Positions 22,777 through 27,640 of a stretch of DNA of 64,000 nt are shown piece after piece. The notes below the pieces were generated by a model. It was not told the origin of the DNA and searched no databases. It saw nothing but the letters and a program-made list of their open reading frames with translations. Made by a program: the position numbers and the translations under genes. The stretch comes from Streptomyces sp. CA-278952 (GTDB taxonomy: Bacteria; Actinomycetota; Actinomycetes; Streptomycetales; Streptomycetaceae). The stretch covers positions 3,286,001 to 3,350,000 of the forward strand of contig NZ_CP112880.1 of NCBI RefSeq assembly GCF_028747205.1. Direction: 5' to 3'. Numbering within the stretch: position 1 is the first letter of the stretch; each line of letters opens with the position of its first letter.

Positions 22777-23943
22777 ATGCGTACGGACCAGCTGGTCAGC
22801 ACGTTCGTCGAGTACTACGAAGAGCGCGGCCACCGCCGCATCACCGGCTCGACCCTGCTGCCGCCCGACGGCGACCCCGTGCTCTTCACCACCTCCGGCA
22901 TGCACCCGCTCACGCCCTACCTGGAGGGCCGCCCCCACCCGCTGGGCCGGCGACTGGTGAACGTACAGCGCTGCCTGCGCACCACGGACCTGGACGAGGT
23001 CGGGGACGCCACACATCTGACGGTCTTCGAGATGCTCGGCACCTGGTCGCTGGGCGACTACGGGGGCCCGCTCAGTCTCGACTGGGGGTACGGGCTGCTC
23101 ACCGAGGGCCTGGGCGTCGATCCCGGTCTGCTGCACGCCACCGCCTTCGCCGGTGACGACCGGACCGGTCCGGACACCGCCTCCGTCGACCTGTGGCAGG
23201 GCCTCGGCGTCCCCGTGGAACTCACCGTGGAGGACAACTGGTGGCCCAACGGATCGGCCGGCCCCTGCGGCCCCGACTCGGAGATCTTCCTGTGGACCGG
23301 CGAAGGCCCGCCGCAGTCGACGCCCACCCGCGACGACCGCTGGGTCGAGGTGTGGAACCACGTCACGATGACCCACCGCCGCCTCGGCGACGGCTCCCTC
23401 GTCCCGCTCCCCCAGCGCAACGTCGACACCGGCCTCGGCCTGGAACGGCTGGCCTCCCTGCTCCAGGGCGAGTCGTCCGTCTTCGCCTGCGACGTCTTCG
23501 CCCCCTGGCGCCACCTGGTGCCCGCCCTGTGGCCGCTGGACGAACCGTCACTGCGCCTGGTCGGCGACCACCTTCGCTCGGCCGTCGTGGTGCTCGGCGA
23601 CGGTGTACGCCCGGCCAACTCGGGGCGTGGCTACGTGCTGCGTCGCTTGGTACGACGGGTACTCACCGTGCTGTGGCGCGACGATCCCTCGCGCAGCGTC
23701 GGGGACCTGCCGGAGGAACTGGTCGAGCACACCCTGGACCACTTCCGGCAGGACCTGCGCCCGGGCGACGTGCTCCGGATGCTGCTCGAGGAGGAGCACC
23801 GGTTCCGCGGGCTCCTGGAGCGCGGCCGAAGGGTGCTCGCCAGGCCCCGGTTCCAAGGCCCGCTGACCGAGGAGGACTTCCACTACCTCCACGACACCCA
23901 TGGACTGCCCCGCGAGCTGGTCCTGAGCCTGCGCGAGGAGTGA
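22777..23943 (+). CDS. Alanyl-tRNA synthetase homologue limited to catalytic and tRNA-recognition part
   Basis: 388 residues, ATG 22777 after AAGGAG. It follows AlaRS from start to about the end of the tRNA-recognition domain: VSTFVEYYEERGHRRI, LLPPDGDPVLFTTSGMHP, motif 2 (RCLRTTDLDEVGD ... FEMLGTWSLGDY), motif 3 (DTGLGLERLASLLQG), NSGRGYVLRRLVRRV and YLHDTHGLPRELVLSL. The editing domain and C-Ala (about 450-500 residues) are missing. E. coli AlaRS fragments of similar extent still aminoacylate, so activity is possible. Roles to consider: back-up synthetase, resistance, or supply of Ala-tRNA for a peptide transferase. Confidence 0.8.
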   Translation: MRTDQLVSTFVEYYEERGHRRITGSTLLPPDGDPVLFTTSGMHPLTPYLEGRPHPLGRRLVNVQRCLRTTDLDEVGDATHLTVFEMLGTWSLGDYGGPLSLDWGYGLLTEGLGVDPGLLHATAFAGDDRTGPDTASVDLWQGLGVPVELTVEDNWWPNGSAGPCGPDSEIFLWTGEGPPQSTPTRDDRWVEVWNHVTMTHRRLGDGSLVPLPQRNVDTGLGLERLASLLQGESSVFACDVFAPWRHLVPALWPLDEPSLRLVGDHLRSAVVVLGDGVRPANSGRGYVLRRLVRRVLTVLWRDDPSRSVGDLPEELVEHTLDHFRQDLRPGDVLRMLLEEEHRFRGLLERGRRVLARPRFQGPLTEEDFHYLHDTHGLPRELVLSLREE

Positions 23944-24016: not shown

Positions 24017-25120
24017 TCACGCCCTGCTGGGCCGGACAACTTCGCCGGGGTCCCGGAGCCATACCTGCTGGCCCCGGTCGGTCACGGTCAGCCCGAACTG
24101 TTCGGCGTCGGGTCGCCCTGCCGACTCGTACTCCCACCAGACCTGCTCGATCTCCTCCCACAGGAACCCGGGCCCGTACTGCCACACCTCCTCCCCCGAG
24201 GCGGCCGTCGCAGCGCCTCCGTCCTCCCGGGTCACCCAGACCCGCGCCCCGTCGACGGTCTCCTGGTGGATGAGCCGCACGCCGGGCAGCCGGGCCCCCG
24301 CATACAGGGCGAATCCGAGATCGAGGAGCCGGGCGGGGTCCAGACCAGCGGCACGGGCCCGACCCTTGCCCCGCACCTCGTGGAGGTCAGGCACGCGATG
24401 GGCTCGCATCGGCATGTACGTGGCCCCGCCGCAGAACGGCCCCACCGCCGTGCCGTCGCCCTGAACGCGAAGTTGGACCAGCGCCCCGGACCAGAACTCC
24501 CGGGCGAGCGGAACCACGAGGACCCCACCGGGCCGGACCTGGCGGAGCAGCGCGTACGGGACATACCGCAACGCGCAGGTAGCGATCAGCCGATCCACGG
24601 GTCCCAAACCGGGCCACGGCTCCTCACCATCGCCGACCCGCAGGTGCGGACGATACCCGGCCTGCGCCAAGGCGTCGGCCGCCTGCCGGGCCACCACCGG
24701 GTCCAGCTCGACACTGTGGACCAGATCGTCACCGAGCCGCTCGCACAGCAACGCCGCGACATACCCGGTGCCAGTGCCGATCTCCAGCACACGCTGCCCG
24801 TCGACGACTTCGAGGAGCGTGAGCATCCGGGCGACCATCGAGGGCATCGAGTTAGACGACGTAGCGAGGCCGGGTCCGCCCTCGCCCCCGTCGTCGAGCT
24901 GGGTAATGACCGGCTCGTCGCTGTTCACCAACGCCAGCCACGCATCCGCCCCCACGACCGGCTCACACCGATCGGGCAACTGCCGCCACACAACCTCCGG
25001 AACGAACCGGCTACGCGGAACAGCCTCGAACACCCGCCGCCACCGGCCGGTCAGCAACCCACGATCGGCCAACTCCTGCACCAGAGACGGGTAGGTGGGT
25101 GCCTGGTGTGCGGCGCTCAC
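24017..25120 (-). CDS. Protein-isoaspartate methyltransferase-like enzyme of RiPP type
   Basis: 367 residues from GTG 25120, which overlaps the stop of the upstream peptide gene (GTGA); the frame is open further upstream but that DNA encodes the peptide. PCMT hallmarks: SMPSMVARMLTLLEV, motif I VLEIGTGTGYVAALLCERL, VHSVELDPVVARQAADAL, RLIATCALRYVPYALLRQVR and PGGVLVVPL. It has a long Trp-rich C-terminal extension (EEVWQYGPGFLWEEIEQVWW, GLTVTDRGQQVWL) as in methyltransferases of ATP-grasp and imiditide peptide systems. No ATP-grasp gene is near. It probably methylates an Asp of the adjacent peptide, leading to aspartimide. Confidence 0.8.
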   Translation of the reverse strand: MSAAHQAPTYPSLVQELADRGLLTGRWRRVFEAVPRSRFVPEVVWRQLPDRCEPVVGADAWLALVNSDEPVITQLDDGGEGGPGLATSSNSMPSMVARMLTLLEVVDGQRVLEIGTGTGYVAALLCERLGDDLVHSVELDPVVARQAADALAQAGYRPHLRVGDGEEPWPGLGPVDRLIATCALRYVPYALLRQVRPGGVLVVPLAREFWSGALVQLRVQGDGTAVGPFCGGATYMPMRAHRVPDLHEVRGKGRARAAGLDPARLLDLGFALYAGARLPGVRLIHQETVDGARVWVTREDGGAATAASGEEVWQYGPGFLWEEIEQVWWEYESAGRPDAEQFGLTVTDRGQQVWLRDPGEVVRPSRA

Positions 25121-25248
25121 CACTGCGGGAAGCACTGAGGGCGACTGCCGTCCGGAGTCGGCTTCGGCTCCTGGGGCGGCGTCCACGGCTTGTCCGAGGG
25201 CGGCCCACCGTGTTTACCGGCATCGGCCGATACGGGGGTAGTGATCAT
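25117..25248 (-). CDS. 43-aa candidate RiPP precursor
   Basis: ATG 25248 with GAGGAG upstream. The upstream gene's stop overlaps this ATG (ATGA), and its own stop overlaps the methyltransferase GTG. It begins MITTPVSADAGKHGG and ends TPDGSRPQCFPQW. Pro-rich, with Asp at 9, 19 and 33. Asp33 is followed by Gly, the sequence most prone to aspartimide formation, so it is the best candidate for modification. No signal peptide or membrane segment. Its size and position match imiditide precursors next to their methyltransferase. Confidence 0.65.
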   Translation of the reverse strand: MITTPVSADAGKHGGPPSDKPWTPPQEPKPTPDGSRPQCFPQW

Positions 25249-25472
25249 TGTCCATCTCCTCTGTTCTTCGGAACACTTCTATTGGCGGGGCGGTGGTGCA
25301 GCCGGTAGATGCCGTACGGCGGGAAGACGTCGACGCGGCGCGGACAGCCACTCTCCGCGCACGCCCGGCACAGCAGCTCCCGGCCGTGAGCGGTGTGCCG
25401 GGCGGCGGTCACCGAGGAACGCCAACACGCCTCACACGTACGCGCATCCGCAGCCGACAGGCTGACGCTCAT
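25245..25472 (-). CDS. Small zinc-ribbon-like protein
   Basis: 75 residues, ATG 25472 (MSVSLSAADARTCEACW). It has two CxxC pairs (CEAC and CRAC) and a further Cys (GCPRR), suggesting one zinc site, followed by a basic aromatic tail (VFPPYGIYRLHHRP). Both ends overlap neighbours by ATGA. Function unknown; in this operon it could be an accessory or DNA/peptide-binding factor. Confidence 0.6.
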   Translation of the reverse strand: MSVSLSAADARTCEACWRSSVTAARHTAHGRELLCRACAESGCPRRVDVFPPYGIYRLHHRPANRSVPKNRGDGQ

Positions 25473-25768
25473 CCGGCCTCCCGGAGAGCGGTGGCCGCCG
25501 CATGGCACGGACAGACACAATCAGGCCGCAGGCAGAGGGCGTGCACGTCGGCCAGACCCGTCACCAAGGCACTGCGGCAAGCAACGCCGTACGGACCATC
25601 CGCGCCCGCCGACAACCCGTCCAGGTCAACACCCGCCCCCTGAGGTACATCAGCGGCCGTGATCGGGTCCCCCCGCCACAACAGCGTCACCTCATGCTCC
25701 GGGCAGTAAGCACCCGACTCGTCCTCGATCGACGACCCGTGCGCCTCCCCCTTCACGTAGCACCTCAT
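25469..25768 (-). CDS. Small Cys-rich hypothetical protein
   Basis: 99 residues, ATG 25768 (MRCYVKGEAHGSSIEDE), overlapping the upstream stop by ATGA. Cys and His residues are spread along the chain (YCPEHE, VACRS, CLRPDCVCPCH), so a metal site or disulfides are possible. I do not recognise the family. Confidence 0.55.
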   Translation of the reverse strand: MRCYVKGEAHGSSIEDESGAYCPEHEVTLLWRGDPITAADVPQGAGVDLDGLSAGADGPYGVACRSALVTGLADVHALCLRPDCVCPCHAAATALREAG

Positions 25769-25917
25769 GCGCTTCGCGCCTCCCGCCAGGCACGGGCAAG
25801 GTCGACAGCGGTGGTGCAGGCGGTTCCGGCAAGGCAAGCGATGCAGGTCGTGGTGTGGTCAAGAAGTATCCGGTATGCAGCTTGGGGCTTGGGGGAGGGC
25901 ATGGTCAGCGCGCTCAT
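25765..25917 (-). CDS. 50-aa hypothetical protein, first gene of the peptide operon
   Basis: ATG 25917 with AAGGAAG upstream. The chain has RILLDHTTTCIACLAGTACT, a short Cys motif, and ends in a charged helix (VDLARAWREARSA). It is the first of five consecutively overlapping genes (25917 to 24017). Function unknown. Confidence 0.55.
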   Translation of the reverse strand: MSALTMPSPKPQAAYRILLDHTTTCIACLAGTACTTAVDLARAWREARSA

Positions 25918-26057: not shown

Positions 26058-26900
26058 CTAATCGGGCTCCAACGACGCCCGTGCACGACCGATCAAACGG
26101 CGTGCCTGCGGCCCCTGGACCGCGGCTTCGGCCATAAGATCCCACGCCCGCTCATACAGGCCGACGTTCTCCTCGTCGTCGAGCCACATCTCGGTGTTGA
26201 TCGTCTCGACGATCACACGACGGCGGTCATAGATCCAAAACCCGTGGCCCGGCGCACGTTTCAGTTGCACTCCGAGTGGAAGCACGCGGATCTCGACGGT
26301 GTCCAGACCAATCAGCCCGATGAGCCGGTCCAGTTGTGCGGCCATAACTTCGCGGGGGCACGTCAGTACGTACAGTGCCGCCTCCCACACCACGAACCGG
26401 AAGTGTTTGCCGGCCTCGTACAACGCCTCCTGGCGGCGCATGCGCGCCCGGACTGCTGCCTCGACGTCTCTGGGGATTCTGCGGAATTCGGCGTTCGCCT
26501 CGAACGCGTGCCGGGCGTAGTCCGCAGTTTGGAACAGTCCCGGAATGCGGGACACCTCCATACCCCGGATGAGCTGCGTAGCCATCGTCTCGGTGACAGC
26601 CAGCTCCTGGCGCGCCCGATGACCACCGGCGAGTTGCCGTCGCCACGACCGGTACTGCGATTCCAGTCCGACGAGCCGCGCCCGCAACTCGGTCGCGACA
26701 CCAGGCCGCCCCACCGCCCGGGCCCACTCCAAGAGGTCACTCGCGGTGGGGGTCTGCTTTCCTGTCTCCAGGCGCGACACCTTCGAGCGTTGCCAGCCGA
26801 GCGCCTCGGCCACGCCCTTGCCGTTGAGGCCGGCCTCGCTGCGTAGCTCGCGGAGTCGCGCTCCGAGGGCGACGCGGGCGGTTTGGAAGTCGGTGCTCAC
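26058..26900 (-). CDS. XRE-family regulator with DUF5753 domain
   Basis: 280 residues from GTG 26900, which overlaps the stop of the DUF6879 gene (GTGA). N-terminal HTH (LRELRSEAGLNGKGVAEALG, SKVSRLETGKQTPT), then a DUF5753 domain (IPGLFQTADYARHAFEA, RQEALYEAGKHFRFVVWEAAL, VEIRVLPLG). Such proteins are abundant in Streptomyces, often paired with small DUF397-type or other genes, and often control development or nearby clusters. It is 140 bp upstream of the five-gene peptide operon on the same strand. Confidence 0.85.
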   Translation of the reverse strand: MSTDFQTARVALGARLRELRSEAGLNGKGVAEALGWQRSKVSRLETGKQTPTASDLLEWARAVGRPGVATELRARLVGLESQYRSWRRQLAGGHRARQELAVTETMATQLIRGMEVSRIPGLFQTADYARHAFEANAEFRRIPRDVEAAVRARMRRQEALYEAGKHFRFVVWEAALYVLTCPREVMAAQLDRLIGLIGLDTVEIRVLPLGVQLKRAPGHGFWIYDRRRVIVETINTEMWLDDEENVGLYERAWDLMAEAAVQGPQARRLIGRARASLEPD

Positions 26901-27640
26901 CCGGTCGAAGCTACTGCCTTCGCGAAGTCCGCAGTGCGCGTCGCGTGGTGCCAGGCCGCGTCTCGCGCCTGGCACGCGAGAGCGACTTCGGCTGGGTCCT
27001 CGCTGAGTACGACGCCGAGGGTGGTGTCGTCCTCAGCGAAGACGAACCGGGCGATCAGGCGGGAGTCGAACAGCCAGAAGTCGTGGCCGGGCAGGCCAAG
27101 TCGGGCTGCCTGGGTGCGTGGCAGGTTGCGGATGTCCTCACCAGCTGCCACGTTGCCCTGGCCACTGGCAAGAAGAAACTGCTGCCCTTCGGTCAGAGGC
27201 TGGTCAACGAGCCGGACCCGCTCGAACCTCTTCCCCTGAGTCGTCTGCGCCCGGACGTTCTCGCGCCATGCGTTGTCCGGCTCAGCGGAGATGTCCTCGC
27301 CGCTCTTCCACTGTCCCCACTTCGGACTGTTGCGGTCGGAGGCGTATCCGTGTCGGGTTTCCAGTCGGAACGCGGTGTGCCTGAATTCGCGGAACAGCGG
27401 GGCGACCTCGGAGAACGGCACCATCTCAGGATCGGTAGTGCGTGGGGCGAAGCGGACCAGGAGGTCACGTGGCACGAGTACGACTGTCTCGCTGTCTTTC
27501 ACATCGCGGAGCTGCGCCAGGTGTTCGGGGTCGGTAACCCGGTCACCCTGGACAAGGATGTCGGTGGTGCCCTCGACCTCGTACAGAGTGGGGCAGTCTC
27601 CCTCGTCGCTGGTGGTACCGAGAAACCTGAGAAGCGTCAT
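26897..27640 (-). CDS. DUF6879-family protein
   Basis: 247 residues, ATG 27640 with GGAGG upstream. The first ~75 residues (MTLLRFLGTTSDEGDCPTLY) look like a small domain of their own, and the rest fits DUF6879: FSEVAPLFREFRHTAFRLET, LPGHDFWLFDSRLIARFVFA, and a C-terminal charged helix. DUF6879 genes usually sit beside XRE-DUF5753 regulators; this pair is translationally coupled. Role unknown, perhaps in modulating the regulator. Confidence 0.75.
   Translation of the reverse strand: MTLLRFLGTTSDEGDCPTLYEVEGTTDILVQGDRVTDPEHLAQLRDVKDSETVVLVPRDLLVRFAPRTTDPEMVPFSEVAPLFREFRHTAFRLETRHGYASDRNSPKWGQWKSGEDISAEPDNAWRENVRAQTTQGKRFERVRLVDQPLTEGQQFLLASGQGNVAAGEDIRNLPRTQAARLGLPGHDFWLFDSRLIARFVFAEDDTTLGVVLSEDPAEVALACQARDAAWHHATRTADFAKAVASTG

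Follow-up and report, generated by a model that had tools for sequence, protein, structure and literature searches.

A probable imiditide-type RiPP operon with additional small Cys-containing genes in Streptomyces sp. CA-278952

Background

Imiditides, or type I pamtides (NmaA-NmaM, SpaA-SpaM), are an already published class of ribosomally synthesised and post-translationally modified peptides (RiPPs; PMC10787088, PMC13001092), with a published type I set of 1414. As far as the accessible parts of these papers describe them, a short precursor containing Pro, Gly and Asp adjoins a homologue of the protein-isoaspartate methyltransferases (PIMTs) that carries a C-terminal domain, no other primary modifying enzyme is present, and type I precursors contain on average 17 percent Gly, 17 percent Pro and 10 percent Asp. 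The precursor of the type II pamtides, according to the accessible text of PMC10787088, is a zinc ribbon of the form CxxCxGxG-D-CxxCxGxG and is itself the substrate. Here we describe an operon in a stretch of 64,000 nucleotides (the window) of Streptomyces sp. CA-278952, contig NZ_CP112880.1 of assembly GCF_028747205.1, positions 3,286,001 to 3,350,000 of the forward strand. The operon shares the main traits of the type I systems, a short Pro-rich precursor directly followed by a PIMT-type O-methyltransferase of the peptide-modifying kind (PAMT) and no other primary modifying enzyme, and is quite likely an imiditide or type I pamtide-like locus. The host genome measures 8.2 Mb, and the named relatives at the locus are all Streptomyces.

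Results

The operon consists of five leftward genes, in the order s50, c98, z73, precursor peptide and methyltransferase (Table 1), which overlap end to start at the junctions ATGA, ATGA, ATGA and GTGA. In every relative measured the rate of non-synonymous change (pN) was lower than that of synonymous change (pS), namely in 21 of 21 for s50 (median pN/pS 0.50), 22 of 22 for c98 (0.38), 21 of 21 for z73 (0.47), 33 of 33 for the peptide (0.30) and 40 of 40 for the enzyme (0.19). All five genes are under purifying selection, and these ratios together with the conservation of the genes rule out chance open reading frames. A Shine-Dalgarno sequence (agaggagatgg-like) precedes the ATG of the peptide here and in most close relatives among 17 inspected, while some distant relatives in the same set have no clear one. 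This site lies inside z73, where it is translated as the common terminal RGDG.

The peptide and the enzyme occur together with great regularity. A search for the enzyme in 295 Streptomyces genomes (E <= 1e-50) listed 38 matches with an identity of at least 49%, and in 36 of these a KPW-type peptide frame lies directly upstream. Two of the 36 are decayed, one by a stop codon within the enzyme frame together with loss of the start block of the peptide (L111), the other by a change of the peptide frame (L120); the two matches that have no peptide (L123, L124) are truncated enzymes. A peptide profile built from 12 relatives matched 43 of the same 295 genomes at E <= 0.01, with 37 strong matches (E <= 1.1e-7) spread over 30 genomes; weaker matches were treated as doubtful, and at one locus (L114) a peptide-like match stands without an enzyme. 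Precursor and enzyme distances correlate (n = 38, r = 0.58, 0 of 2000 permutations), as linked genes would be expected to. Among 19 further loci with enzymes of 33-45% identity, seven carry a KPW-type peptide, all seven having been picked via the peptide search, six carry other peptides of the GKHG, NKHG or GSHGG type (L125, L127, L128, L130, L131, L133) and two have odd precursor candidates. Of the latter, the putative precursor at L129 has its GKHG block at the C-terminus (...KPGDGKHGK) and that at L132 has no such block (...PTPDGGPGVPNPPKAV). The entries of the automatic precursor catalogue for L102, L107, L109, L129, L130, L132, L133 and L135 were corrected by eye.

The host genome itself contains three peptide-enzyme copies, each with its own peptide. 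The enzyme of the second copy, at 3.85 Mb, is 93% identical to that in the window and its peptide differs at 2 of 43 positions, while the enzyme of the third copy, at 4.88 Mb, is 71-72% identical. Methyltransferase remnants were also seen at two apparently decayed loci (L047 and L123; the C-terminal 52 and about 125 residues), one of them in Streptomyces griseus NCTC13033.

The precursor peptide ends in TPDGSRPQCFPQW, which contains Asp33-Gly34. It is composed of 11 Pro, 4 Gly and 3 Asp among 43 residues, Pro thus being high and Gly and Asp lying below the type I average, and it holds one Cys. In the set of 42 KPW-type precursors the D-G that follows KPW is kept in 41, the earlier Asp in only 33, and a Pro stands immediately ahead of D-G in most. 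The near-invariance of D-G makes Asp33-Gly34 the candidate modification site, and by this pattern Asp33, the residue also put forward in the earlier note, is the likely modified one.

The methyltransferase has a clear PCMT domain (96.6 bits against a cut-off of 20.3, scored on a 389-aa frame) and a Trp-rich C-terminus. The longer frame stems from the mechanical list of open reading frames, which extends the gene to 25186, whereas the alignment with relatives begins at the GTG at 25120. In the structure model (pLDDT 87.6) the C-terminal domain has the published strand order, and the top Foldseek match is the T. maritima PIMT 1dl5, the alignment spanning both domains. The enzyme is thus predicted to combine a PIMT fold with the C-terminal domain of peptide-modifying PAMTs.

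Much of this had been anticipated by an earlier note made from the letters of the window. Its five leftward overlapping genes, the 43-aa Pro-rich peptide with an Asp-Gly pair near its end and the following PIMT-like enzyme with the Trp-rich C-terminal extension of peptide-modifying members are all found as described. Two of the tests that the note had set, on co-occurrence and on conservation, did not refute it: the related methyltransferases nearly always stand next to a peptide, and the peptide forms a conserved family directly ahead of the enzyme.

Pfam searches with the seven operon and regulator proteins, and with 20 proteins from the flanks (12.1 to 40.0 kb), found no ATP-grasp, lanthipeptide or lasso enzyme, in agreement with the same note; the flanking genes were chosen by length and GC pattern, a choice that may overlook short or unusual ones. 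A search of the plasmid collection gave no match, and a plasmid location was rejected. Some 140 bases upstream of s50 there is a gene for an XRE-type regulator with a DUF5753 domain, together with a gene for a DUF6879 protein. On the downstream side a gene for an alanyl-tRNA-synthetase-like protein runs convergent with the operon. This protein is shorter than the PF01411 profile, the match reaching profile position 406 of 552, and its gene is also found near the operon in some relatives (L014, L017, L047).

Table 1. Features of the operon and its surroundings (positions in the window)
Feature	Coordinates	Strand	Description
s50	25765-25917	minus	50 aa, Cys-containing; first gene of the overlapping set
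c98	25469-25768	minus	99 aa, Cys/His-rich (...CxxxxCxCPCH)
z73	25245-25472	minus	75 aa, two CxxC pairs (CEAC...CRAC); putative zinc ribbon
Precursor peptide	25117-25248	minus	43 aa, GKHGG...KPWTPP...PTPDGSRP; proposed modification site Asp33-Gly34
PAMT (PIMT-type O-methyltransferase with C-terminal domain)	24017-25120	minus	367 aa; GTG start overlaps the peptide stop
XRE-type regulator with DUF5753 domain	26058-26903	minus	PF19054 131.3 bits, PF13560 53.2 bits
DUF6879 protein	26897-27640	minus	PF21806 182.1 bits; overlaps the XRE gene
Stand-alone class II alanyl-tRNA-synthetase-like protein	22777-23943	plus	388 aa, PF01411 268.8 bits

The Cys pattern of z73 points to putative zinc binding. A search with its profile found 43 matches, spread over 23 of the 295 genomes; 10 lie at imiditide operons and 33 elsewhere, which rules z73 out as an imiditide-specific part. 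At the 10 operons z73 never continues into a tail; seven copies end in RGDG, RGEG or similar and three stop earlier. Away from such operons 31 of the 33 relatives were fetched, the two weakest being excluded, and in 29 of the 31 the frame is extended by a [KR]H block (GKHG, GRHG, DKHR or similar), followed in 27 of the 29 by a Pro-rich tail that mostly ends in PPV; in the other two, L151 and L174, the tail is truncated. The exceptions are L160, which has no [KR]H block, and L179, where bases are masked and the tail lies in another frame. No PAMT was found in the 30 loci fetched for these relatives (flanks of at most about 4 kb, and less where a contig ends, as at L173), and eight of these 30 have a DUF6879 gene together with the XRE gene. 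A protein search returned 59 members of the tailed family, the organism-labelled records being Streptomyces and mostly named hypothetical protein. The full tail pattern is present in 41 of them; many of the other 18 look fragmentary or have a frame-changed end, and a few are intact but terminate differently.

Tails and precursors have the GKH block and richness in Pro in common. The [KR]H motif exceeds what tail composition predicts, being present in 11 of 11 tails against 1.1% of shuffles, although it was picked after inspection of the tails and the shuffle test used 11 of the 12 aligned. At the Asp position the 41 tail proteins read DP in 18, NP in 18, DQ in four and AP in one, so that Pro comes next in 37 of 41. 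A Pro at the n+1 position should block aspartimide formation, and aspartimide should therefore not form there; together with the lack of a PAMT at the 30 loci this makes z73-type tails unlikely PAMT substrates.

The product of c98 has no NCBIfam or Pfam match. A search with it gave 29 matches. Among the 11 with E < 1e-36, 10 lie at peptide loci; among the 18 weaker matches, 16 lie elsewhere, in part in genomes where the peptide has no match. Relatives at loci with no PAMT in the fetched flanks rule out c98, too, as an imiditide-specific part. Several copies in genome G019 (L155-L158) are followed by a different 38-52-aa Cys peptide, ANDEGGQGC.GCGTTKG.CH.PNRHGL, and no PAMT was found near these. 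A 48-aa family (MTIKVYEVxRxG...FPxCxCPxC) recurs near the imiditide loci L082, L084, L086, L087, L091, L092, L096 and L106, at several of them on the upstream side, and occurs away from such loci at L161 and L164. More generally, with a crude filter, small Cys-motif open reading frames lie upstream of the PAMT at 20 of 57 loci, made up of 12 of the 15 loci with at least 72% enzyme identity and 8 of the 42 below; the control bins, 1047 in number, contain 36 such frames. The view of the earlier note that the three extra Cys proteins belong to no described imiditide locus agrees with the accessible text of PMC10787088 and PMC13001092, but at least two of them are not specific to imiditides.

Regulators were counted at 57 PAMT loci, which are incompletely independent of one another; of 58 loci fetched from the 295 genomes (37 via the peptide, 18 via the enzyme and three host paralogues) L114 was excluded as it has no enzyme match. 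At nine loci the PAMT has a DUF6879 gene no more than about 3.4 kb away (L079, L081, L088, L096, L104, L109, L113, L129, L133), accompanied at eight by an XRE-DUF5753 gene, in both orientations, and a further one lies about 5 kb away at L118. Judging from 27 DUF6879 matches in nine genomes of the genus, weak ones included, chance alone would give about 0.15. A PAMT is absent from all of 20 other DUF6879 loci, which rules out DUF6879 as imiditide-specific, and a full-text search for DUF6879 in the literature library used found no paper.

A second XRE family, delimited by single-linkage clustering, is found upstream at 18 of the 57 loci, one member being a 45-aa fragment and one lying on the opposite strand. 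The near-identical second host copy has such a gene, 94% identical to the L017 protein, and three relatives are present in the host genome at E <= 1e-10. HTH_3 or HTH_31 was found in all six proteins scanned, which gave no Pfam TPR match, and the structure model (seven sequences, pLDDT 85.3) is all-helical and TPR-like. Foldseek ranked PlcR with PapR first (E 3.1e-4) and had ComR, Rgg2 and PrgX in its top 15, alongside unrelated TPR proteins; VIA-align placed eukaryotic TPR proteins first and Rap and NprR lower. RRNPP proteins are a family of peptide-sensing regulators, and the second-family proteins at these sister loci, outside the window, have the RRNPP domain plan of an XRE DNA-binding domain and a TPR-like one. 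From the model it is plausible that they are peptide-sensing regulators.

Discussion

The assignment proposed by the earlier note, an imiditide-type RiPP operon, is supported by the pairing of peptide and enzyme, by the conservation of the peptide and by the accessible accounts in PMC10787088 and PMC13001092, and we regard it as probable. As in described imiditides, the C-terminal extension of the methyltransferase exceeds 100 residues, a precursor of about 45 residues adjoins it, a conserved Asp lies near Pro and Gly, and primary enzymes of other RiPP classes are absent from the scanned proteins. Several observations weigh against it. The peptide has a net charge of zero, whereas the literature stresses charge-charge recognition (PMC13001092, in its accessible part). 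The best NCBIfam model for the enzyme, TIGR04188, scores 310.9 bits and thus below its cut-off of 380. The place of the WXXXGXP motif near the C-terminus reads YESAGRP, with Tyr at the Trp position in most aligned close relatives and Phe in one, and WEQLGRP in L044; a review figure legend gives the motif for most members, and we therefore do not treat it as defining. No recognisable peptide was found at four of the 19 distant loci (L126, L134, L135, L136), three of which are the further PAMT-like genes of the host, at 5.49 Mb (L134), 5.45 Mb (L135) and 5.66 Mb (L136), that have no credible peptide. The operon contains neither exporter nor protease. Finally, comparison of the precursor profile with that of the z73 tails aligned only eight columns, the GKH block, at a probability of 38%, and the link between tail and precursor is thus a fusion-type clue with common descent unproven.

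By analogy with characterised family members, translation of peptide and enzyme would be coupled, the enzyme would use S-adenosylmethionine to methylate the Asp33 side chain while the peptide is linear, the amide nitrogen of Gly34 would then displace methanol to form an aspartimide, and this would hydrolyse to isoaspartate or aspartate. We infer on this basis that the enzyme converts Asp33 to aspartimide or isoaspartate. The GKHGG and KPWTPP blocks are probably its recognition elements. The anatomy of the locus further suggests, as hypotheses, that z73 may be a partner acting on or with the GKHG peptide and that the XRE-DUF5753/DUF6879 pair might control the operon; a signalling role of the product is a further hypothesis.

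Could the enzyme instead be a protein-repair PIMT, and the peptide an unrelated conserved small protein that is co-translated with it? A clear PCMT catalytic domain would suit such a role, as would the six PCMT matches of the host genome that lie in large open frames, three of them without a credible peptide, but the extra C-terminal domain, the near-constant neighbouring peptide with its conserved D-G and the three host copies that each have their own peptide do not, and we find this hardly credible. It is very unlikely, too, that the methyltransferase acts on z73, or on z73 bound to the peptide. For this speaks that the precursors of type II pamtides, in the accessible text of PMC10787088, are zinc ribbons in which an Asp occupies the centre, and that z73, with its two CxxC pairs, is translated just ahead of the peptide; yet the pattern CxxCxGxG-D-CxxCxGxG is missing from z73, which has either D or E as the acidic residue between the Cys pairs, and no z73 match was found at the more distant peptide-enzyme pairs.

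A third alternative keeps the chemistry and changes the purpose, the product serving not as an antibiotic-like peptide but as a signal that the XRE regulators next to it perceive. The excess of DUF6879 genes, mostly with XRE-DUF5753, near PAMTs, the second XRE family upstream of 18 of the 57, including the near-identical host copy, and the PlcR, ComR, Rgg2, PrgX, Rap and NprR matches of its model argue for it. Against this stand the many unrelated proteins that TPR solenoids match at similar or better scores, the 20 DUF6879 loci without a PAMT and the lack of an exporter or importer in the operon, and we consider a signal possible, if doubtful. A joint reading goes further, and we think it unlikely: the Pro-rich GKHG segment of the precursor and the ribbon tails would be one module, present here as a separate gene with a PAMT-modified Asp-Gly, free z73 would be its binding partner, and the whole would be a regulatory device under exchangeable XRE regulators.

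If that joint reading were true, the function of imiditides would be that of small modified regulators or of signals, and not that of antibiotics. The accessible part of PMC13001092 names linking aspartimide peptides to biological function as an open challenge. The [KR]H Pro-rich ribbon tails, and the regulator pair present at some loci of both kinds, offer two candidate partners, the ribbon protein and the XRE regulators, and ribbon relatives whose tail resembles the peptide motif provide a new handle on the role of such peptides. With the operon, its near-identical second copy in the host, which stands under another regulator, forms a natural pair for the study of regulation.

Comparison with known systems

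The locus shares traits with three further kinds of system. Like the group 13 graspetides (fuscimiditide, amycolimiditide, SsfA) it encodes a homologous methyltransferase with TIGR04188 as best model, and DUF5753 regulators are also reported near group 13 clusters in the accessible text of PMC13097080 and PMC8939145; different from these, it has no ATP-grasp enzyme among the proteins scanned. With the type II pamtides or cysimiditides (FcaA, TceA, NalA) it has in common a PAMT and a Cys-based, probably zinc-binding module, but here the ribbon and the peptide with the Asp are encoded by a gene each, and neither carries CxxCxGxG-D-CxxCxGxG. The XRE-DUF5753 regulator with its linked partner gene resembles the Streptomyces XRE/DUF397 pairs, as far as PMC10364602 describes them in its accessible part, except that the partner here is DUF6879. 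As compared to two-gene imiditides, the operon couples five overlapping genes, its peptide is neutral, YESAGRP takes the place of WXXXGXP, a ribbon-like gene carries the Shine-Dalgarno sequence of the peptide, and an XRE-DUF5753/DUF6879 pair lies upstream. Five-gene coupling, neutral peptide, altered motif and the ribbon and regulator neighbours together mark it as a variant of the imiditides as described in the literature.
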